From the NCBI RefSeq assembly GCF_026013905.1, contig NZ_CP110257.1, positions 1,302,001 through 1,366,000 of the forward strand: a stretch of 64,000 bases of DNA, written 5' to 3'. The position numbers were made by a program, and so were the translations under genes. This stretch comes from Schlegelella aquatica (GTDB taxonomy: Bacteria; Pseudomonadota; Gammaproteobacteria; Burkholderiales; Burkholderiaceae_C). Below the pieces are notes generated by a model. The model saw only the letters and a program-made list of their open reading frames with translations. It had not been told where the DNA came from and searched no databases. Below, one piece after another: positions 52,028 to 63,743 of this stretch. The stretch's first letter is position 1; every line of letters begins with the position of its first letter.

Positions 52028-54829
52028 TCAGGCAGGCGCCGCGAGTGCGGTCGGGGCTTGAAGGAGCTTGCGGACCTCGGGCAGGCACGAACCGCACTGC
52101 GTGCCGCAGCGCAACCGGGCCTGCACGGCGTGCAGTCGGGCCTCGACGGTGGCTGCGTCCGGCGGACAGGCCTCGAGGATCTGGGTGTCCGCGACGTCGA
52201 AGCAGGCGCACACCTGGCGGCGGGGCGTTGCGGCCTGCGACGCCGGGGGGTGTGCCCCGGGCACGAGCAACAGGCGGCCGTAGTCCTGCGCGGGACGCCG
52301 CTCCTGCCACAGCGGCTTGACCCAGCGCCCGGCACTGATATCGCCGGCCAGCAAGAAGGCCTGCAGGGCGACCGGCTCGCCCGATTCGGCGTCCGTCAAC
52401 CGCATCACGCGGCGCTGCCCGCGCCGGCGGTCCAGGTAGCGCAAGGCGTTCGGTCCGTCCAACCCGAGCAGGCGTTCGAGCGTCTCCAGAAGCGGCGCGG
52501 GGGGCGGCTCGTAGGACGCGGCGCGCAGGAGCAGCCCCACCGGGTCGCGCGGGCCCGTCTCGCGGCCCACGGGCACGCAGGCAGCGTAGGCAAACCGGCT
52601 CATCAGAGTGCGCAACTCGGCACGCACCGCCTGGGCGCAGTGAGCGGGCAGCCAACCCGCGGCCAGTAGCGACCACGGCAACTCGGCCTTGAGGATCTTG
52701 ATCGCTGCGTGCTTGAGCTCGGGCTGCTTCGAGACCGGGCAGTGAGCACTGGTGGTCAGCGCATTGACGCCGGCGGCCGGCTGACCGCTGCCCGTCTGCC
52801 CCGACACGAACTCATCGCCCCAGTGCATCGCGATGAAGGCCTGCGCCGGCGCCACTTCGCCGCTGCCCTGGGCAGGCAACACGATGGAGCCTCGACGCGA
52901 GGTGATGTGCACCAGGTCTCCGTCGCGCAGGCCCTGGCGTGCCATGTCGGCGGGGCTCAACTCGATGCACGGTTCGCTCACATGCCCGAACAGCCGGCCC
53001 AGCTGGCCGGTGCGGCTCATGCCGTGCCACTGGTCGCGCAACCGCCCGGTCGTCAGGCTGATGGGATAACGCACATCCCGTGCTTCGGCCACCGGCACGT
53101 ACTCGACGTTGGCGAAGCGCGCCCGTCCGTCGGGCGTGGGGAAGCGGCCGTCCTCGTACAGGCGGGCGCGACCGGTAGTGGCGCCTTGCGGCATGGGCCA
53201 CTGCTGAGGCCCCAGCTCCTCGAGCAAGGCGTAGCTCAGAGCGGTGATGTCCAGGTCGCGGCCTCGTGTGGTTTCGCGATGCTCGTTCCAGATCGCCTCG
53301 GGGCTGTCGTAGGGGAACAGTGTGTGGGGCGCCCGCGCGGGCAGCCGTCGTTCGAGGCGGCGCGCAATGTCCACCGCGATGCGCCAGTCGCAGCGTGCCG
53401 ACCCCGGCGGCGGTACGGCCGCTCGCACACGCGTGACGCGCCGCTCGCTGTTGGTGACGGTGCCGTCCTTCTCTGCCCACGTCGCGGCCGGCAACAGCAG
53501 GTCGGCATAGGCGCAGGTCGCCGTGGTGGCATACGCTTCCTGCACGATGACCAGCTCCGCGCGCTCGAGTGCCTGGCGCACCGTGCGCTGGTCGGGCATC
53601 GATTGCGCAGGGTTGGTGCAAACGATCCACAGGGCTTTGATCTGACCGCGGGCCGCCGCTTCGAACATCTCCACGGCCGTCGTGCCCGGTGTGGCAGGCA
53701 CGTCCGGCACGCCCCACAGGCGCGCCACTTCGGCCCGGTGGTGCGGGTCGGACAGATCCCGGTGCGCACTGAGCAGGTTGGCGAGCCCGCCGACCTCGCG
53801 ACCCCCCATGGCATTGGGCTGCCCGGTCAGAGAGAAGGGTCCCGCCCCGGGGCGGCCGATCTGGCCGGTGGCCAGGTGCAGGTTGATGAGCGCCGCGTTC
53901 TTGGCGGTCCCGCTGGCGCTCTGGTTCAACCCCTGGCAATAGAGCGAAAGCGTGGCGGTCGATTGTCCGAACCAGCGGGCCGCCTGCACGAGGCTGCGCT
54001 CCTCCAGGCCGCACAGCGCTGCTGCCGTCCGCGGCGTGTAGCGGCGTACCGTGGCCCGCAGGGTCTCGAAGCCGGTGGTGTGTTGTGCGATGAAGCGGGT
54101 GTCGAGCAGCCCTTCCTCGATCAGCACATGGAGCATGCCGTGAAAGAGCGCCACGTCCGTGCCCGGCTGCACCGGCAGGTGGAGGTCGGCCGCTTCGGCG
54201 GTGGGGGTGCGCCGCGGGTCGGCCACGATGATCCGCAGCGCCGGGTTGGCCCGTTTGGCCTCCTCGATGCGCCGGAACAGAATGGGATGCGCATAGGCGG
54301 TGTTCGAGCCGGCGATGAAGATCGTCTGGGCGCGATGCACGTCGTCATAACAGGCCGGCGGGGCATCGGCCCCCAGGGTCTGCTTGTATGCCGCGACGGC
54401 ACTGCTCATGCACAGCCGCGAGTTCGTGTCGATGTTGTTCGTGCCGAGCAGCCCCTTGGCGAGCTTGTTGAAGACGTAGTAGTCCTCGGTGAGCAACTGG
54501 CCGGAGATGTAGAAGCCCACCGCATCCGGCCCATGCTGGCGGATCACCCCTGCGAGCCGTTGCGCCGCCTCGTCGAGCGCCACGTCCCACGATACCGGTC
54601 GCGGCGGCTGCTGCCTCGAAACGCGCATCATGGGCTCGAGCAGGCGGTTCTGCCGCATCAACGGCGCCATGGCCGTCAGGTGCAGCGTGCTGCCCTTCGT
54701 GCACAGACGCCCGAAGTTCGCCGGATGCTGCGGGTCGCCCCGCACCCCGACGATCTGCTCACCCTCCGACTCGATGATGACCCCGCAGCCCACGCCGCAG
54801 TAGGGGCAGGTCGATTTCGTTTCACGCAT
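52028..54829 (-). CDS. nasA: Assimilatory nitrate reductase catalytic subunit NasA
   Basis: A 933-residue molybdopterin enzyme reducing nitrate to nitrite. The N-terminal [4Fe-4S] ligands are Cys8, Cys11, Cys15 and Cys43 (CPYCGVGC ... RLCTKGS). Cys140 in NSRLCMSSAV is the likely molybdenum ligand. The bis-MGD domains follow, then a C-terminal BFD-like [2Fe-2S] domain (VCACFDV ... GTQCGSCLPEV) as in NasA proteins that take electrons from a separate reductase or ferredoxin. ATG 54829 is the only in-frame copy of the repeated start region; a longer frame to 55117 reads the repeats in another phase and is rejected. It follows nirD and the repeat array. Confidence 0.95.
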   Translation of the reverse strand: MRETKSTCPYCGVGCGVIIESEGEQIVGVRGDPQHPANFGRLCTKGSTLHLTAMAPLMRQNRLLEPMMRVSRQQPPRPVSWDVALDEAAQRLAGVIRQHGPDAVGFYISGQLLTEDYYVFNKLAKGLLGTNNIDTNSRLCMSSAVAAYKQTLGADAPPACYDDVHRAQTIFIAGSNTAYAHPILFRRIEEAKRANPALRIIVADPRRTPTAEAADLHLPVQPGTDVALFHGMLHVLIEEGLLDTRFIAQHTTGFETLRATVRRYTPRTAAALCGLEERSLVQAARWFGQSTATLSLYCQGLNQSASGTAKNAALINLHLATGQIGRPGAGPFSLTGQPNAMGGREVGGLANLLSAHRDLSDPHHRAEVARLWGVPDVPATPGTTAVEMFEAAARGQIKALWIVCTNPAQSMPDQRTVRQALERAELVIVQEAYATTATCAYADLLLPAATWAEKDGTVTNSERRVTRVRAAVPPPGSARCDWRIAVDIARRLERRLPARAPHTLFPYDSPEAIWNEHRETTRGRDLDITALSYALLEELGPQQWPMPQGATTGRARLYEDGRFPTPDGRARFANVEYVPVAEARDVRYPISLTTGRLRDQWHGMSRTGQLGRLFGHVSEPCIELSPADMARQGLRDGDLVHITSRRGSIVLPAQGSGEVAPAQAFIAMHWGDEFVSGQTGSGQPAAGVNALTTSAHCPVSKQPELKHAAIKILKAELPWSLLAAGWLPAHCAQAVRAELRTLMSRFAYAACVPVGRETGPRDPVGLLLRAASYEPPPAPLLETLERLLGLDGPNALRYLDRRRGQRRVMRLTDAESGEPVALQAFLLAGDISAGRWVKPLWQERRPAQDYGRLLLVPGAHPPASQAATPRRQVCACFDVADTQILEACPPDAATVEARLHAVQARLRCGTQCGSCLPEVRKLLQAPTALAAPA

Positions 54830-55121
54830 GAGGCAAGGCCGCTGGGGCGGCGGGGAGCCCCCCGCTGGGCGGGGGGACGAAAGGGGGGTGCCCGGTGACA
54901 CCGCAGAGCGGACCGCCACCGGCGCGTCCGCAGCCCACGCCGCAGTAGGGGCAGGTCGATTTCGTTTCACGCATGAGGCAAGGCCGCTGGGGCGGCGGGG
55001 GAGCCCCCCGCTGGGCGGGGGGGACGAAAGGGGGGTGCCCGGTGACACCGCAGAGCGGACCGCCACCGGCGCGTCCGCAGCCCACGCCGCAGTAGGGGCA
55101 GGTCGATTCCGTTTCACGCAT
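54822..55121 (-). CDS. Leader ORF in the repeat array (99 residues, two fused units)
   Basis: From ATG 55121 a frame of 99 residues reads MRETESTCPYCGVGCGRAGG and then, because this unit is 147 bp (a multiple of three), continues in phase through the next copy, MRETKSTCPYCGVGCGRAGG, to a stop at 54824-54822. The stop overlaps the nasA start in ATGCGTGA. It repeats the Cys8/Cys11/Cys15 pattern twice. Whether it is translated is unknown; the upstream sequence has no clear ribosome site. Confidence 0.35.
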   Translation of the reverse strand: MRETESTCPYCGVGCGRAGGGPLCGVTGHPPFVPPAQRGAPPPPQRPCLMRETKSTCPYCGVGCGRAGGGPLCGVTGHPPFVPPPSGGLPAAPAALPHA

Positions 55122-55266
55122 GAGGCAAGGCCGCTGGGGCGGCGGGGAGCCCCCCGCTGAGCGGGGGGACGAAAGGGGGGTGCCCGGTGACACCGCAGAG
55201 CGGACCGCCACCGGCGCGTCCGCAGCCCACGCCGCAGTAGGGGCAGGTCGATTTCGTTTCACGCAT
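55114..55266 (-). CDS. Leader ORF in the repeat array (50 residues, single unit)
   Basis: A 50-residue frame from ATG 55266 reads MRETKSTCPYCGVGCGRAGG followed by a Pro-rich C-terminal part ending LPHA. Its stop (TGA at 55116-55114) overlaps the next repeat start at 55121 in ATGCGTGA, so ribosomes could move from one to the next. It starts 20 bp after the nirD stop. The peptide keeps three of the four iron-sulfur Cys of NasA and is too short to fold as the enzyme. Coding status is uncertain. Confidence 0.35.
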   Translation of the reverse strand: MRETKSTCPYCGVGCGRAGGGPLCGVTGHPPFVPPLSGGLPAAPAALPHA

Positions 55267-55286
55267 GAGGCAAGGCCGCTGGGGCG

Positions 55287-55702: not shown

Positions 55703-58147
55703 TCAGGCGGACAGGGCCTCGAACTGCCTCAGGTCCACCCGGGCTTTGTCGAACTCGACCCAGGGGTCGGGCTCGCCTTCGAGCGAGAACCTCAAGCGTG
55801 CCCAAAGCGCCCGACGGTGGTCGGCATCGTCCAGCACCTTCTTCTTGACGTGGTCCAGGCCGACCCTGGAGATGTAGTGGCAGGTGCGCTCCAGATACCA
55901 CCCCTCCTCGCGGTAGAGCTGCAGGAACGCTCCTGCGTACTCCAGGACTTCCTCGTGCGTCTTGACCTTGCAGAAGAAGTGTGCAACCTCGGTCTTGATG
56001 CCGCCGTTGCCTCCCACGTAGATCTCCCACCCGGAATCCACCCCGATGATCCCCACGTCCTTGATGCCGCTTTCGGCGCAGTTGCGGGGGCAGCCGCTGA
56101 CGGCCAGCTTGACCTTGTGCGGCGCGTACATGCGCCACAGGGCACGCTCGAGCTCCTTGCCCATGCGCGTGGAGTCCTGGGTGCCGAAGCGGCACCATTC
56201 GCTGCCCACACAGGTCTTCACGGTGCGCAACGCTTTGGCGTACGCGTGGCCGCACGGCATGCCGAGATCGCGCCAGACCTGGGGCAGGTCTTCCTTCTTG
56301 ACGCCCAGGAGGTCGATGCGCTGGCCGCCGGTGACCTTGACCGTCGGGATCTTGTACTTGTCCACGACGTCGGCGATGCGGCGCAGTTCGGCGGCCGTCG
56401 TTTCGCCGCCCCACATGCGTGGCACGACCGAGTAGGTGCCGTCCCTCTGGATGTTGGCGTGGCTGCGTTCGTTGATGAAGCGTGACTGCGGGTCGTCCGT
56501 GGCTTCCTTCGGCCAGGTCGCCAGAAGGTAGTAGTTGACCGCCGGGCGACAGGTGGTGCAGCCGCTCGGTGTGCGCCATTCGAGGAAGCGGAAGGTCTGC
56601 TCGATGCTGAGCAGCTTGTGCTGACGGATGGCGTGACGCACCTCGTCGTGGCTGTGATCGGTGCAGCCGCACATCGCCCTCTTCTTCGGCGCGGCGGAGT
56701 AATCGCCACCTGCGGTGGCCATCAGGATCTGTTCCACCAGCCCGGTGCACGATCCGCACGAGGCACTGGCCTTGGTGTGCTTGCGCACCTCGTCCAGCGT
56801 GAACAGGCCCTTGTCCTTGATGGCCCGGCAGATCGCGGCCTTGGTCACGCCGTTGCAGCCGCAGACCTCGTCGGTGTCGGCCATCTCGGCGGCCTTGCTG
56901 TGGCCCTGGTGGCCGGTGTCACCGATGTTCGATTCGCCGAACATCAGCCGGTCGCGCAGCTGCGCCACCGAGCGGCCCTCCCGCAGCAGTTTGAAGTACC
57001 AACTGCCGTCGACCGTGTCGCCGTACAGGCACGCACCCACCAGCCTGTCGTCCTTGAGGACGAGCTTCTTGTACACGCCTGCGTAGGGGTCGGACAGCAC
57101 GATCTCCTCGGTGCCTTCGCCGCCCATGAAGTCGCCGGCCGAGAAGAGGTCGATGCCGGTCACTTTGAGCTTGGTGGACACCTGCGATCCGGTGTAGCGG
57201 CCGATGCCCAACTCCGCCAGGTGCGTCGCGCAGACCTTGCCTTGCTCGAACAGCGGGGCGACCAGGCCGTAGGCGACACCGCGGTGCGAGGCGCACTCGC
57301 CCACGGCGTAGATGCGCGGATCGGTGATGGTCTGCATCGTGTCCGTCACGACGATGCCGCGGTGGCAGTGCAGGCCGATCTTCTCCGCCAGCTCGGTGTT
57401 GGGACGGATGCCGGCGGCCATCACGACCAGGTCCGCAGGCACCTCGCGGCCGTCTTTGACCTGCACGGCCATCACGCGGCCCGACCTGCCGCCGTCCCGA
57501 TCGCCGATGAGCGCCGTGGTGTGAGCGCCGATCAAGAACCTCAGTCCGCGGTCTTCGAGCGACTTCTGCAGCATCTTGCCGGCCACCTCGTCGAGTTGTC
57601 GCTCCATCAACCAAGGGGCGATGTGCACGACCGTCACCTGCATGCCACGGCGCATCAACCCGTTGGCCGCCTCCAGCCCCAGCAGGCCCCCGCCGACCAC
57701 GACCGCGTGCTTGTAGCGCTGCGCCGCCTCGATCATGGTGTTCGTGTCCGCGATGTCGCGGTAGGCGACGACGCCCTCCAGGTCCTTGCCCGGCACAGGC
57801 GGAATGAAGGGGGTGGAGCCCGTGGCGATCAGCAGCCGGTCGTAGGCGGCCGTGGTGCCGTCCTCGGCCGTCACGATGCGGCGCCGACGATCCACGTCGA
57901 CGACCTTCTTGCCCAGGTGCAACGAGATGCCGTTCTCGCGATACCACTCGAGGGGGTTGAGGATGATCTCGTCCAGCCTCTGCTCGCCGGCCAGCACGGG
58001 GGAGAGCAGGATGCGGTTGTAGTTGGGGTGCGGCTCGGCGCCGAAGATCGTGATGTCGTAGAGGTCCGGGGCGAGCTTGAGCAACTCCTCGACGGTGCGC
58101 ACACCCGCCATGCCGTTGCCGATCATCACCAGTTTCATCTTTCTCAT
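55703..58147 (-). CDS. nirB: Assimilatory NADH-dependent nitrite reductase large subunit NirB
   Basis: An 814-residue enzyme reducing nitrite to ammonia. Domains in order: FAD- and NAD-binding pyridine nucleotide-disulfide part (MIGNGMAGVRTVEELL, VVVGGGLLGLEAANGL), a BFD [2Fe-2S] domain with VCGCNGVTKAAIC and ASCGSCTGLVEQIL, a second Cys-rich stretch, and the siroheme/[4Fe-4S] domain with TCVGSEWCRFG and VSGCPRNCAESGIKDVG. The length is normal. Siroheme supply comes from cobA in the same cluster. The gene follows the nitrate transporter by 21 bp. Confidence 0.95.
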   Translation of the reverse strand: MRKMKLVMIGNGMAGVRTVEELLKLAPDLYDITIFGAEPHPNYNRILLSPVLAGEQRLDEIILNPLEWYRENGISLHLGKKVVDVDRRRRIVTAEDGTTAAYDRLLIATGSTPFIPPVPGKDLEGVVAYRDIADTNTMIEAAQRYKHAVVVGGGLLGLEAANGLMRRGMQVTVVHIAPWLMERQLDEVAGKMLQKSLEDRGLRFLIGAHTTALIGDRDGGRSGRVMAVQVKDGREVPADLVVMAAGIRPNTELAEKIGLHCHRGIVVTDTMQTITDPRIYAVGECASHRGVAYGLVAPLFEQGKVCATHLAELGIGRYTGSQVSTKLKVTGIDLFSAGDFMGGEGTEEIVLSDPYAGVYKKLVLKDDRLVGACLYGDTVDGSWYFKLLREGRSVAQLRDRLMFGESNIGDTGHQGHSKAAEMADTDEVCGCNGVTKAAICRAIKDKGLFTLDEVRKHTKASASCGSCTGLVEQILMATAGGDYSAAPKKRAMCGCTDHSHDEVRHAIRQHKLLSIEQTFRFLEWRTPSGCTTCRPAVNYYLLATWPKEATDDPQSRFINERSHANIQRDGTYSVVPRMWGGETTAAELRRIADVVDKYKIPTVKVTGGQRIDLLGVKKEDLPQVWRDLGMPCGHAYAKALRTVKTCVGSEWCRFGTQDSTRMGKELERALWRMYAPHKVKLAVSGCPRNCAESGIKDVGIIGVDSGWEIYVGGNGGIKTEVAHFFCKVKTHEEVLEYAGAFLQLYREEGWYLERTCHYISRVGLDHVKKKVLDDADHRRALWARLRFSLEGEPDPWVEFDKARVDLRQFEALSA

Positions 58148-58168: not shown

Positions 58169-59530
58169 TCAGCGCCAGGCGCCCGGTTGGGACGCGAGGG
58201 GCCGGGTCTTCGGGACGGCATTCACCACGCCGACCGGTGCGCCCGCCGCAGTCACGGCGGGCCCGTGAGGCACGGGGGCATGCACCGGCGTCGCAGGGCC
58301 GGGGCGGGAGGCGGCGGGCAGCGGAGTGCGCGCTTTGCCACCCTGATCGATCCAGCTTGCCGTCCAGCGCTTCTGCGCACGCCAGAGCACGAGCAGCATC
58401 GTCACCGTGGCCAGCGCGAACGCCGCAAACCCCCACAGATAGGAGCCCCCGTACTGCTTGGAGAGGCCCATCGCATTGGGAACGAAGCCGCCTCCCAGTG
58501 CACCGATCTCCCCGATCATCGAGCCCGCCACCGCCGTGGTCGTCGGCCACCGCAGCGGCACGAGCTGGAACACCGCTCCGTTGCCGGCGCCCAGGGCCGC
58601 AAAGCACGCCATGAAGAGGCCGGTGGCCAACCACACCGAGTCGCCCGCCCAGCCGCACAGCAGGAGGGAGACGGCCACGCCGATCAGCACGGCCGACAGC
58701 GTGCGCACGCCTCCCACGCGGTCCGAGAGGTGGCCGCCCAGCACACGCACCACCGAGCCCATCAGCGTGGCCAGCATCGTCAGCTGCCCGGCCTCGACCT
58801 TGCTCACGCCGAACTGGTCGTGGAAGTAGGTCGGCAGGAAGCTCGCCAGCCCTATGAAGCCGCCGAAAGTCACCGCATAGATCAAGCTGAAGATCCAGCC
58901 GTCCTTCTCCAGCAGACAGGCCAGGTGCTGCCGCAGCGTCTGGTGTTCCCGATCGGGCGGCTCCTTGGCGCACTGCCACATCACCGACATCGGCACCAGC
59001 ATCGTGAGGGCCGCGATGCCGTAGACGGTCTGCCAGCCATACAGCGTCGCCAACGGAGGGGCGAACAACACGGCGAGCACCGTCCCCGAGTTGCCCGCTC
59101 CGGCCAGCCCCATCGCCAGGCCCTTGTAGCGGGGCGGATACCAGCCCGATCCGAGCGAGAGCGCCACGCCGAAGCTCGCGCCCGCGATGCCGAGCAACAC
59201 CCCCATGGCCAGTACGCTGTCGTAGCTGTCCACGAAGAAGTAGCCGTAGGTGAGGGCCGCGACGATCAGCCCCATCTCGACCATGGCCGCGTTCTTGCGG
59301 CCGATGTACTGCGCCAGCACGCCGAGCGGGAAGCGCATCAAGGCGCCGGCGAGGATCGGTACCGAGACCATGAAGCCCTTCTGCGCCGCGCTGAGCCCGA
59401 AGCTCTCGCCGATGAAGGGTCCCATCGCGCCATTGAGCACCCACACCGCGAAGCAGAAGTCGAAATAGAGGAACGACGCGAACAAGGTGGGCCAGTGACC
59501 CGAGGAGAGGAAGTTCGTAGGACGTGCCAT
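58169..59530 (-). CDS. Nitrate/nitrite MFS transporter (NarK/NrtP type)
   Basis: A 453-residue transporter starting MARPTNFLSSGHWPTLFASF. Signatures of the NNP family are present: AGALMRFPLGVLAQYIGRK with the conserved Arg, GIAGASFGVALSLGSGWYPPRYKGLAMGLAGAGNSG (nitrate signature, helix 5 region) and GSMIGEIGALGGGFVPNAMG (second nitrate signature). Both substrate Arg positions appear kept. The C-terminus has a Pro/Ala-rich tail of about 60 residues. It is the first gene of the operon, with a sigma-54 promoter and ANTAR-type leader upstream. Confidence 0.92.
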   Translation of the reverse strand: MARPTNFLSSGHWPTLFASFLYFDFCFAVWVLNGAMGPFIGESFGLSAAQKGFMVSVPILAGALMRFPLGVLAQYIGRKNAAMVEMGLIVAALTYGYFFVDSYDSVLAMGVLLGIAGASFGVALSLGSGWYPPRYKGLAMGLAGAGNSGTVLAVLFAPPLATLYGWQTVYGIAALTMLVPMSVMWQCAKEPPDREHQTLRQHLACLLEKDGWIFSLIYAVTFGGFIGLASFLPTYFHDQFGVSKVEAGQLTMLATLMGSVVRVLGGHLSDRVGGVRTLSAVLIGVAVSLLLCGWAGDSVWLATGLFMACFAALGAGNGAVFQLVPLRWPTTTAVAGSMIGEIGALGGGFVPNAMGLSKQYGGSYLWGFAAFALATVTMLLVLWRAQKRWTASWIDQGGKARTPLPAASRPGPATPVHAPVPHGPAVTAAGAPVGVVNAVPKTRPLASQPGAWR

Positions 59531-59612
59531 GGGAGTGTCGCCCGCCGCGCAGTCCCGGTCGCTGTGGAGGCGACGTGGGCCGACGCTGGCGTGTAGGCCA
59601 GTCCGACTCGAG

Positions 59613-59677
59613 ATGCGCACCGCACTGTGCGCATGGCCTGGCGGTACGGGGACCAGACCGGGCGCTGCGCTGCGCCC
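59613..59677 (-). promoter_or_regulatory. Two-hairpin ANTAR target RNA in the nitrate operon leader
   Basis: On the minus strand hairpin P1 is GGGCGC-AGCGCA-GCGCCC (59677-59660) and hairpin P2 is ATGCGCAC-AGTGCG-GTGCGCAT (59634-59613). Both loops are exactly six bases with A at position 1 and G at position 4, the published signature of RNA bound by ANTAR antiterminators. The two are separated by 25 nt. P1 begins about 5 nt after the predicted start of transcription. A U-tract that would make a classical terminator is not visible after P2, so the exact switching mechanism is open. Confidence 0.85.
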
Positions 59678-59692
59678 ATGCGGGCCCTTCAA

Positions 59693-59708
59693 TGCAACAC
59701 CTGTGCCA
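59693..59708 (-). promoter_or_regulatory. Sigma-54 promoter of the nitrate assimilation operon
   Basis: On the minus strand TGGCACA-GGTG-TTGCA matches the consensus TGGCACG-N4-TTGCA except for one base, with the GG and GC elements correctly spaced. The start of transcription is expected near 59682, 152 nt upstream of the transporter ATG. This implies an enhancer-binding activator such as NtrC and control by nitrogen status. No convincing NtrC site was found; a GCAC-N8-GTGC near 59717-59732 is off by one base from the usual spacing. Confidence 0.85.
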
Positions 59709-59752
59709 GCAGCTGCACGAGGGTTGGTGCGATCCGTGCTTTCTGCGACGGC

Positions 59753-61015
59753 ATGATGGCGAGCAAAGTGATCGTGGCAGGGCCGGATCTGCGGGCACTC
59801 GAGGCCCTGACCCGAGACATGCAGGACGTGGGCATTCACGTCCTTGGTGCAGACGATGGATGCAACCTGGTGCGCGAGTGCATCAGGCTGGCGCCCGAGG
59901 CCCTGGTGTGGTGGGAGGACTGGCTCACCGTGCGCAGCCTCGACCACTTGCGCTTGCTCGCGCAGACCCACCCGCTGCCCACCCTGGTCTACACGCTCGA
60001 AGATGACGTGCGCCGATTGGAGGCCGCCGTGGAGGCGGGCGTGCAGGGGTATGTGGTCAACGGCTATGCGAGCGCGCGCCTGCGCAGCGACCTCGCCGCC
60101 GCCTGCGCGCGCTTCCGCAGGGAGCATGCGCTGCTGCGCGCGCTCGAGGAGCTGTCGCACAAGCACGAGGAGCGCAAGCTCATCGACCGCGCCAAAGGCG
60201 TGTTGATGCGCGCCACGCAGATGTCGGAGGAGGAGGCGTTCCGCTGGTTGCGCACCGCTTCCATGAGGCAGCACCGGCGTGTCGGCCAGGTCTCGCGGGT
60301 GCTGGTCGAAGCCGCCGCCCGCGCGCACGCCATCAACCGGGCAGGGCTGCTGCGGATGCTCTCTCAACGGTACGTGCTGGTGAGCGCCGCCGGGTGCGCC
60401 GGCGCATGTGTGGTCGCGCAAGGCGCCCTGCAAACGGTGACCGACACCGTCGCGCAGGTGCTGTCGGAGCTGCAGCGCTCCGAGGTGGTCCACCCGTACG
60501 GGGACCTCGTCGGAGCCGCGGCCGAGCAGTGGGCCCGGGTCGTCGCGGTGCAAGGACAGGGGGCGGACCATTGGTCCGAGCTTGACGAGGCGGCCGAGCG
60601 GCTGCTGGAGGCCGCCGAGCGCTTGACCGGCTGCCTGGAGGCTGCCTGGCCGGAAGGGCGTTTGAACGTCGTCAACCTGTGCGCGCGGCAACGCATGCTG
60701 GCGCAGCGCTATGGCAAGCACATGGCGCTGGCCGCGCTCGGCCACACCGATGCGGTCGCCGCCGCTGCTGCCGCCGCCCCCACGCGGGCGCAGTTCGAAG
60801 CGGCTCTCGAGGCGCTGCGGCACACGCCCCTGACCTCTGAGCGCGTGCGCGAGCTGCTGGCCCAGGCGGCCCGGACCTGGCGAGTGCTGCTCGCCGCCTG
60901 CCACGGCAGCCCTCCAGCCTGGGACGGCCTGATGGGCGCCGCCGACGAGCTGGTGTGCGTGTTCGATGCGCTGACGCAACAGTACGAACAGGAGGTGCAC
61001 CGGCTCATCGGCTGA
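59753..61015 (+). CDS. Nitrate-responsive antiterminator: pseudo-receiver, ANTAR and PilJ-like sensor
   Basis: A 420-residue regulator from ATG 59753 (MMASKVIVAGP). Residues 5-118 form a receiver-like domain in which the usual phosphorylated Asp is replaced (PEALVWWEDWL), so it is probably not phosphorylated. Residues about 131-191 are an ANTAR domain (RKLIDRAKGVLMRATQMSEEEAFRWLR). Residues about 194-420 contain two PilJ/NarX-P-box-like segments, INRAGLLRMLSQRY and VNLCARQRMLAQRY, typical of nitrate-sensing helical domains. It faces the nitrate operon and very likely binds the two-hairpin leader. The domain order differs from Klebsiella NasR, where the sensor comes first. Confidence 0.88.
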   Translation: MMASKVIVAGPDLRALEALTRDMQDVGIHVLGADDGCNLVRECIRLAPEALVWWEDWLTVRSLDHLRLLAQTHPLPTLVYTLEDDVRRLEAAVEAGVQGYVVNGYASARLRSDLAAACARFRREHALLRALEELSHKHEERKLIDRAKGVLMRATQMSEEEAFRWLRTASMRQHRRVGQVSRVLVEAAARAHAINRAGLLRMLSQRYVLVSAAGCAGACVVAQGALQTVTDTVAQVLSELQRSEVVHPYGDLVGAAAEQWARVVAVQGQGADHWSELDEAAERLLEAAERLTGCLEAAWPEGRLNVVNLCARQRMLAQRYGKHMALAALGHTDAVAAAAAAAPTRAQFEAALEALRHTPLTSERVRELLAQAARTWRVLLAACHGSPPAWDGLMGAADELVCVFDALTQQYEQEVHRLIG

Positions 61016-61169
61016 AGGACGGGCGGCCGCTTCCCGTCCCTCGCGCATCCCGCACTCGGGGGGCGTGCATCAAATGGGGGGGCGCGTGGTGAACGCGTTC
61101 CAGCCCCATGAAAGGCAGTTCGCGCCACAATCGCGGGGTGCGCCCCCGCGACGGGCGCCCCTCGAACCG

Positions 61170-62201
61170 ATGAGCCCTTCCTCCTCCGACCCACAAGCTG
61201 CCGACCCGATGGAGCCCTTGCGACCTGGCCTCACCGTCGACGAGGCGGCGGCCTGTCTGCGTCCTGTGCTGGACCACTTCGGCGAGGGCTTCGTCGTCAA
61301 GGATGCCGAGGGCCGCTACCTGTATGCCAATGCCGCGGCCGCCCGCATGCTCGGGCGGTCGGTGCAAGAGGTCGTCGGGCGGTGCGACGAGGAATTGCTC
61401 GATGCCGCGACGGCGGCGTCGCTGCGCGCCGGCGACCAGGCCGCGCGCTTGCAGTCACGCCCTCTGTACCGAGACGAACGCCTGCCCGGTGGCGACGAGG
61501 GCGTGATCGAGCTGCAGACGCTCAGGTACTGCGCGCCCGGCGCCGCCGACCCCGCCGCGGCACCCGTGTGTGCGCTGTGGACGGACGTCACCCAGGTGCG
61601 GCGCCTGCAGGCCCAGTTGCGCCACGCCCTCGAGCAGCTCGAGCTCCAGCAGCGTCAGAACGAGGAGCTGCGGCAGGAACTGCAGGACCAGCCGGTGCGC
61701 GATCCCGTCAGCGGTGTGTACAACCGGCACCACTTCGAGGAGCAGCTGCGCCGCGAGATCGACCTGTCGCTGCGCGAGAACCGCGAGTTCGCGCTGGTGG
61801 CCATCCGCATCGACCGCTACGGTGAGCTCATCGCGCGGCTCGGCGCTGCGGCGGGCGAGCGCGTGCTGCAGGCCCTGGGTCGCTTGCTGCGCGGCAACAC
61901 CCGGGTGATGGACGCGCCCTGTCGCCTGGGCGAGGAGCGCTTTGCCGTGCTCCTGTCCGGGGTGGGGCTGGCCACGGCCCACGCCCGCATGGAAAGCGTG
62001 CGCCGCCAGTGCGAGGCGCAGATGGTGCTGCTGGAGGGCAGCGAACTGCGCTTCACCGTCTCGATGGGCGTGGCGAGCTTTCCCCATACCGCGCAGGACC
62101 GCCAGGCTTTGCTCGCAGCGGCCGAGGCGGCGTTGGCACGCGCGGGCGAGCGCGGGGGCAACTGCACCCTGCCTGCGCCGATCGCGCTCGATCCGCGCTG
62201 A
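61170..62201 (+). CDS. PAS-GGDEF protein with degenerate GGDEF motif
   Basis: A 343-residue protein from ATG 61170. Residues about 30-140 form a PAS-like sensor domain (FVVKDAEGRYLYANAAAARMLG), followed by a coiled coil (LQLEQLELQQRQNEELRQELQ-type) and a diguanylate-cyclase fold starting DPVSGVYNRHHFEEQL. The active-site loop reads RLGEERFAVLL, where GGDEF has become GEERF, so cyclase activity is doubtful; it may bind c-di-GMP or act as a sensor or scaffold. The stop codon sits in TGATCA shared with the convergent TSUP gene. Confidence 0.85.
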   Translation: MSPSSSDPQAADPMEPLRPGLTVDEAAACLRPVLDHFGEGFVVKDAEGRYLYANAAAARMLGRSVQEVVGRCDEELLDAATAASLRAGDQAARLQSRPLYRDERLPGGDEGVIELQTLRYCAPGAADPAAAPVCALWTDVTQVRRLQAQLRHALEQLELQQRQNEELRQELQDQPVRDPVSGVYNRHHFEEQLRREIDLSLRENREFALVAIRIDRYGELIARLGAAAGERVLQALGRLLRGNTRVMDAPCRLGEERFAVLLSGVGLATAHARMESVRRQCEAQMVLLEGSELRFTVSMGVASFPHTAQDRQALLAAAEAALARAGERGGNCTLPAPIALDPR

Positions 62202-63481: not shown

Positions 63482-63581
63482 AGAGAAGGCGTTGCGCGAC
63501 ACACGGCGGCGGGCGCCGGGCGCAGAAGCCATCGTGAAGGCAAAGGTGTCCGCCACGGACCGGGAGCCGCATTCCTGAACC

Positions 63582-63743
63582 CAGGGGATTCAGGTGGGCG
63601 AGGTCAGTCCGGCTTCGGGTTCATCTGACGCGAGACGATCGCACCAGCCGGACGATCTTCCAAGCCCTAGCTCCAAGAGCATCGGTTCAAGGAAATATAA
63701 AACTCCCGCGAACGCGACGGACGACCCCATTCTACGGCCCCTG
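63582..63743 (-). ncRNA. ssrS: Probable 6S RNA (SsrS)
   Basis: The gap downstream of zapA lacks a gene but is placed exactly as 6S RNA is in many proteobacteria (zapA-ssrS). On the minus strand the ends can pair: CAGGGG (63743-63738) with CCCCTG (63587-63582), and GGTC-G-TCCG (63726-63718) with CGGA-CT-GACC (63611-63602). The enclosed stretch includes a long internal loop with TTTTATATTTCCTTGAACC, resembling the central bubble region. The span, about 160 nt, fits. Boundaries are approximate and no profile search was possible. Confidence 0.55.

Follow-up and report, generated by a model that had tools for sequence, protein, structure and literature searches.

Introduction

Among described systems, NasR of Klebsiella oxytoca (NIT-ANTAR; PDB 4akk) is a one-component nitrate sensor with an ANTAR domain and a NIT fold, and its target is a two-hairpin leader with A1/G4 loops (PMC7496416). 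NasT, a regulator of nitrate assimilation with a receiver-like and ANTAR front half, has a separate NasS/NrtA-like partner. The requirement for A at the first position of the hexaloops (the A1 rule) was reported for NasR and EutV (PMC7496416, PMC3369931). In E. faecalis eut leaders, the two hairpins, P1 and P2, are joined by linkers of 5–12 nucleotides (nt; PMC3369931, PMC8934654); induction dropped sharply with linkers of 3 or 14 nt (PMC3369931), and lengthening by 20 nt abolished EutV antitermination (PMC8934654). The ligand-binding domain of McpN, a PilJ-family sensor, binds nitrate (PMC6381276, PMC8199190). Here we analyze a 64,000-nt stretch of Schlegelella aquatica (contig NZ_CP110257.1, positions 1,302,001–1,366,000; "the window"), in which a regulator gene (59753–61015, plus strand) diverges from a narK-nirB-nasA nitrate operon. 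An original prediction, made from the letters of this stretch alone, had pointed to a sigma-54 promoter, an ANTAR leader and an unusual regulator. We consider it probable that the locus encodes a one-component nitrate-responsive RNA regulator together with its target leader, the whole mechanism proposed below included.

Ramesh et al. (2012) reported dual-hairpin covariance matches in Burkholderia, and their supplementary tables may therefore include some leaders of this kind (PMC3369931). In the available parts of open-licence PubMed Central, subscription literature being outside the scope, we recognized no description of a receiver-ANTAR-PilJ/NIT protein or of a bridged ANTAR leader. The architecture itself is not rare, being present in 69 of 399 genomes from this family, and public records contain it under generic names.

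Results

The regulator, 420 amino acids (aa) long, combines a pseudo-receiver (residues ~1–120), an ANTAR domain (residues 132–185; PF03861, expectation value (E) 5.5e-18) and a NIT/PilJ-like sensor with P-boxes at residues ~195–206 and 312–319. NasR has its sensor first and ANTAR last, whereas here the sensor lies behind ANTAR, the pseudo-receiver stands in front, and the ANTAR helix continues directly into a sensor helix. The PilJ model matches in two stretches (E 5.3e-13), and the two P-box helices are invariant, with invariant arginines in both, in agreement with the earlier description of an ANTAR domain and two PilJ/P-box-like helices. McpN is a periplasmic chemoreceptor domain, in contrast to the sensor here, which is fused to an RNA-binding domain and presumably cytoplasmic. 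The receiver was rightly called a pseudo-receiver: of 25 proteins in an alignment that includes the window's, one has D at the phospho-Asp position and none has K at the conserved Lys position, and this loss of phosphorylation residues sets the regulator apart from EutV. Its front half is 31–35% identical over 127–161 aa to four plain NasT-type proteins from this bacterial family; against the receiver-ANTAR protein adjoining a histidine kinase, the sole other ANTAR match in the window's genome, the similarity is non-significant (E 1.1). No strong PF13379 (NrtA/NasS-like) protein was found in this genome. The predicted fold of the sensor matches the NIT domain of NasR; Foldseek ranked EutV, Rv1626 and AmiR at the top, and NasR appeared in a second-look alignment and not among the 50 matches listed. 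No NCBIfam family scored above cut-off for the regulator, which is 96% identical to its homologue in Tepidimonas fonticaldi (L001). The NasT identity, the P-boxes and the NIT-like predicted fold support the interpretation of the protein as a NasT fused to its own nitrate sensor, in place of a separate partner.

The leader on the minus strand folds into three predicted hairpins. P1 (59660–59677) has a 6-base-pair (bp) stem, GGGCGC/GCGCCC, and the hexaloop AGCGCA; P2 (59613–59634) has an 8-bp stem, ATGCGCAC/GTGCGCAT, and the hexaloop AGTGCG, and both loops carry A1 and G4. The original prediction of two perfect hairpins within the first 70 nt is confirmed, and to these we add a third, Px (GGTCTGGT/GCCAGGCC; 59635–59659), which it did not mention and which fills the gap between P1 and P2. 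The linker measures 25 nt (26 nt if P2 is taken as 7 bp) and the two loops are 45 nt apart. The 157-nt stretch 59534–59690 as a whole is unremarkable in fold stability (z score −1.07).

We collected 71 unique loci, from the 69 of 399 same-family genomes that carry the fusion at E 1e-30, one genome from an order-level search, and T. fonticaldi. Loop and linker statistics refer to 37 leaders chosen by eye. Every one of them has G at the fourth loop position of both P1 and P2. The first position varies between two bases (P1, 17 A and 20 G; P2, 26 A and 11 G), and the A1 rule therefore seems relaxed to a purine here. The loop-to-loop distance is 42–47 nt (45 nt in 18 leaders), and the linker is 23–28 nt and usually folded as Px, in contrast to the short eut linkers. 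With register-free scoring, a helix of at least 4 bp closes the linker in 30 of the 37 leaders, compared with 8 on average and 15 at most in 500 mononucleotide shuffles; seven leaders lack it. In 25 of the 30, the two ends of the helix lie no more than a base from P1 and P2, respectively, and the three hairpins therefore stand side by side. Px occurs in two registers, one base apart. In an alignment of 31 leaders, pairing is kept in 99.5% of cells for P1, 88.9% for P2 and 76.8% for Px, and falls to 25–55% when the partners are slid out of register. Double-changed cells number 53 against 20.3 in shuffles that ignore the relatedness of the leaders, and none of 500 shuffles reached that count. 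Judged by conservation, the leader qualifies as an ANTAR target.

The leader is preceded by a sigma-54-type promoter, TGGCACAGGTGTTGCA (−24 GG/−12 GC; 59693–59708, minus strand), with a putative transcript start near 59682. The spacing TGGCAC-N5-TTGCA is kept exactly at 59708–59693, and the promoter is the sole match to TGGCACNNNNNTTGCA in the 64 kb at up to one mismatch, the match being exact. Since 1.23 such matches are expected by chance in 64 kb, the match is weak by itself and conservation carries the promoter call. A promoter and hairpin scan covered 63 of the 71 loci. In 52 of these divergent upstream regions (window included), a sigma-54-like element is followed 25–60 nt later by an RNNG-hexaloop hairpin of at least 5 bp, against a mean of 0.6 and a maximum of 2 in 50 dinucleotide shuffles; a second such hairpin lies 40–49 nt further in 22 of 63 regions, against 0.02 in shuffles. 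The exact consensus and this conservation uphold the earlier claim of a sigma-54 promoter reading into the nitrate operon, and the architecture and leader pair that the original prediction proposed to seek in related genomes do recur there. It also held that relatives without both hairpins would speak against it, and such cases exist in part: L072 has no such hairpin, L059 has only a 4-bp one, L046 has an A1/G4 hairpin without a recognized promoter before it, and the distant group L083–L100 mostly has P1 without P2 at the fixed distance. In one distant relative (L094), a single G and then seven T come after the P1 stem, and the ANTAR-type hairpin itself resembles an intrinsic terminator.

The window's genome contains two sigma-54 genes. 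NtrC-like sequences upstream are conserved, but they overlap conserved regulator codons (GIHVLGA, NLV; by eye), and their conservation is therefore uninformative about an NtrC site. In six nirB-first relatives (L043, L051, L055, L073, L075, L076), a second sigma-54-type site lies just upstream of nirB and downstream of the ANTAR leader, which it could bypass.

Searches with leader models point to a single target. Model R2, built from 29 leaders without either of the sequences grouped as Tepidimonas (the window and T. fonticaldi), found the leader at 59678–59613 (minus strand) in the whole window genome with 51.0 bits (E 4.9e-7); the runner-up reached 23 bits (E 0.23). Model R1 likewise gave a single match at E 0.01 or better in this genome. 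As far as the two models can detect, there is one leader target and no regulon. R1 matched 45 of the 70 loci searched at E 0.0032 or better, 30 of them training sequences and 15 not. Eight of the 11 loci missed by the strict scan match R1 (L049, L053, L060, L061, L064–L067); L046, L059 and L072 do not. Across the class, R1 matched 5 of 274 genomes at E 0.01, three in the same family and two, weakly, outside it, in a sample whose stricter filters lose weak matches. The R1 leader is thus close to confined to this bacterial family.

The regulator is paired with nitrate genes throughout. In 67 of the 71 unique loci a NarK or NirB homologue is divergent from it, starting 140–953 nt away; the first facing gene is narK in 47 and nirB in 20, with the narK of L052 only 25% identical. 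Two further loci (L078, L081) face NrtA-like genes, assigned by eye, and two (L041, L079) are truncated at contig ends. Every one of the 69 readable loci therefore has a nitrate gene opposite it, with a less firm assignment in three.

The same leader is also found with other regulators. R1 at E 1e-6 or better matched 43 of 399 genomes, 37 of which carry the fusion; in the other six no fusion was found at E 1e-30, and the leader precedes nirB in all six. Four of them (G421, G264, G397, G621) have a NasT-size protein beside an NrtA/NasS-like gene (Pfam-tested in G621 and G421, by eye in G264 and G397), and two (G391, G403) have a NIT-ANTAR protein (PF08376, 8e-53 and 9e-59). All 43 genomes have an ANTAR match, but because 313 of the 399 genomes do, the leader-ANTAR association is modest and lacks phylogenetic independence. 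Further ANTAR proteins occur in several fusion genomes, and which protein reads the leader there is not certain. In one genome (G354; L140, L072), the nirB leader lies ~2.2 Mb from the fusion regulator, the fusion stands beside narK, and a plain NasT-type protein is present.

Discussion

Sequence comparison establishes that the leader is conserved, how the domains of the regulator are arranged and that it is paired with nitrate genes; from this we infer nitrate as the ligand, a positive sign and dimer docking. Under nitrogen limitation, sigma-54 polymerase would transcribe the narK-nirB-nasA operon, and the nascent leader would fold P1, Px and P2 in tandem. Nitrate (or nitrite), held between the two P-box helices of the C-terminal NIT-like sensor, would cause the ANTAR face to be presented; a regulator dimer would then place one ANTAR domain on each hexaloop, with Px keeping the loops at the right distance, and docking would permit operon expression. 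The output may run through the opening of GC-rich structure that covers the first ribosome site, which would in turn relieve Rho-dependent polarity, and not through the classic exchange between P2 and a terminator.

Several results weigh against this mechanism. The 70 nt after P2 in the window are no more structured than shuffles (z score 0.09), and pairing of its ribosome site is not significant (p 0.09). Ensemble pairing in relatives is only moderate: 25 of 29 leaders reach the shuffle median, 11 have p ≤ 0.1 and six have p ≤ 0.05. We rejected an anti-ribosome-site pairing formed as one continuous helix (12.7 against 12.0 in shuffles) and a ribosome-site switch linked to P2 (mean accessibility 0.37 with P2 forced on and 0.37 with it forced off), each over 29 leaders; forcing P2 opened the ribosome site by >0.05 in two of them. 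Under unconstrained folding, P2 has a probability below 0.2 in 11 of 29 leaders and of 0.94 in the window. One of five covariation measures, further pair types, gave 27 against 26.5, with 258 of 500 shuffles as high, and the neglect of relatedness in these shuffles also counts here. A longer linker disables EutV (PMC3369931, PMC8934654); a bridging Px would be a natural explanation for tolerating a gap of ~25 nt. Finally, PF08376 (NIT), the family of the NasR sensor, has no match in the regulator at E 1, and PilJ matches instead.

Docking might instead stabilize P2 in competition with a terminator that the standard rules overlook in GC-rich DNA. Such antitermination is described for the NasR, EutV and AmiR systems (PMC3369936, PMC7496416), and an intrinsic terminator overlapping P2 is a feature expected of dual-hairpin ANTAR targets. 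U-tailed hairpins around or downstream of P2 occur in 6 of 36 leaders, all among the 10 nirB-first leaders, and across the 36 the next 70 nt show, on average, more structure than shuffles (mean z score −1.7; 28 below −1). However, we found no intrinsic terminator in the 26 narK-first leaders, window included, and P2 and the downstream structure do not overlap in the predicted folds. The scan of 59400–59800 returned no terminator-like site on the minus strand, which agrees with the earlier remark that no U-tract follows P2 and distinguishes the window's leader from those of NasR and other dual-hairpin targets. We consider classic antitermination less likely than not here.

Translational control alone, in which the regulator alters how readily ribosomes reach narK, or in relatives a short leader open reading frame (ORF), is a comparably tentative alternative. 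The region after P2 forms 7.2 ensemble pairs with the first ribosome site and start codon, against 3.9 in shuffles (29 leaders), and actinobacterial ANTAR RNAs that overlap the ribosome site are described (PMC8164766). Against it stand the negative contiguous-helix test, the lack of computed coupling from P2 to the ribosome site, and the mycobacterial case in the same source, which is reported as repression. On these results, we give about the same weight to ribosome access coupled to Rho-dependent polarity and to a terminator that was missed.

A working regulator whose sensor reads another input, such as a PilJ-type ligand or a protein partner, would fit the match to the PilJ and not the NIT model, but the P-boxes with invariant arginines, the NIT-like predicted fold and the nitrate gene at every readable locus make it unlikely. 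That the compact inverted repeats adjoining the promoter are DNA sites of a DNA-binding protein is very improbable, as they lie downstream of the putative start, and their fourth loop base is kept whereas the stems vary on both arms, a pattern hard to reconcile with a sequence-specific DNA protein.

The RNA-based nitrate regulator favored here belongs to a real, conserved system, which shows that ANTAR nitrate control varies in domain order and leader geometry; the principle is not new. More speculatively, and with less than even confidence, it may represent an ANTAR subclass of its own: a NasT-NIT fusion whose RNA face would be exposed directly by nitrate binding on a helix that prolongs the last ANTAR helix; a three-hairpin leader whose middle helix would space loops with a purine at position 1 and G at position 4; ribosome access coupled to Rho; and three interchangeable regulator architectures that would have served the same leader in one family. 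The locus offers a natural test of how ANTAR dimers gauge the distance between two loops, with a folded bridge of ~25 nt to set against the short linker of EutV, and a second way of wiring a nitrate sensor to an ANTAR domain. One leader class with three regulator designs makes regulator replacement directly amenable to study, and a widespread Burkholderiales protein family, now mostly named by domain, would gain a working assignment.

Other features of the locus

The first gene of the operon encodes a narK-type nitrate/nitrite transporter (58169–59530, minus strand), whose product matches the NarK family model at 4.3e-75 with 253 bits, below the curated cut-off of 311.7. It is followed by nirB, the nitrite reductase large subunit (55703–58147, minus strand; TIGR02374, 1.6e-280), and, 3' of nirB on the same strand, by a nirD-like Rieske region, nasA and a uroporphyrinogen methyltransferase-like gene, all three assigned by eye. 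The leader from the putative start (~59682) to narK is ~152 nt long, and its part between P2 and narK (59531–59612, minus strand) is GC-rich. The regulator gene starts 44 bases beyond the sigma-54-type site at 59708–59693.

Just after P2, many relatives have the box ATGTGCCTCC, which is absent in Tepidimonas. Short ORFs with a ribosome site lie between P2 and the first operon gene in eight relatives (L056, L057, L061, L062, L064, L067, L043, L055; by eye), and these are possible leader peptides.

At the start of nasA, a 145-bp tandem repeat (54783–55286; 3.5 copies, 98% matches) includes the first codons of nasA in its copies (MRETKSTCPYCGVGCG, by eye), so the nasA start looks multiplied. In Rfam at the gathering threshold, no ANTAR family matched in the window, and the sole match was 6S RNA (RF00013, 55.4 bits; 63545–63724, minus strand). 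Directly after the regulator lies a gene for a PAS-GGDEF protein of uncertain start (61065–62198, plus strand); its homologues follow the regulator in many relatives and adjoin the leader in some genomes without the fusion.
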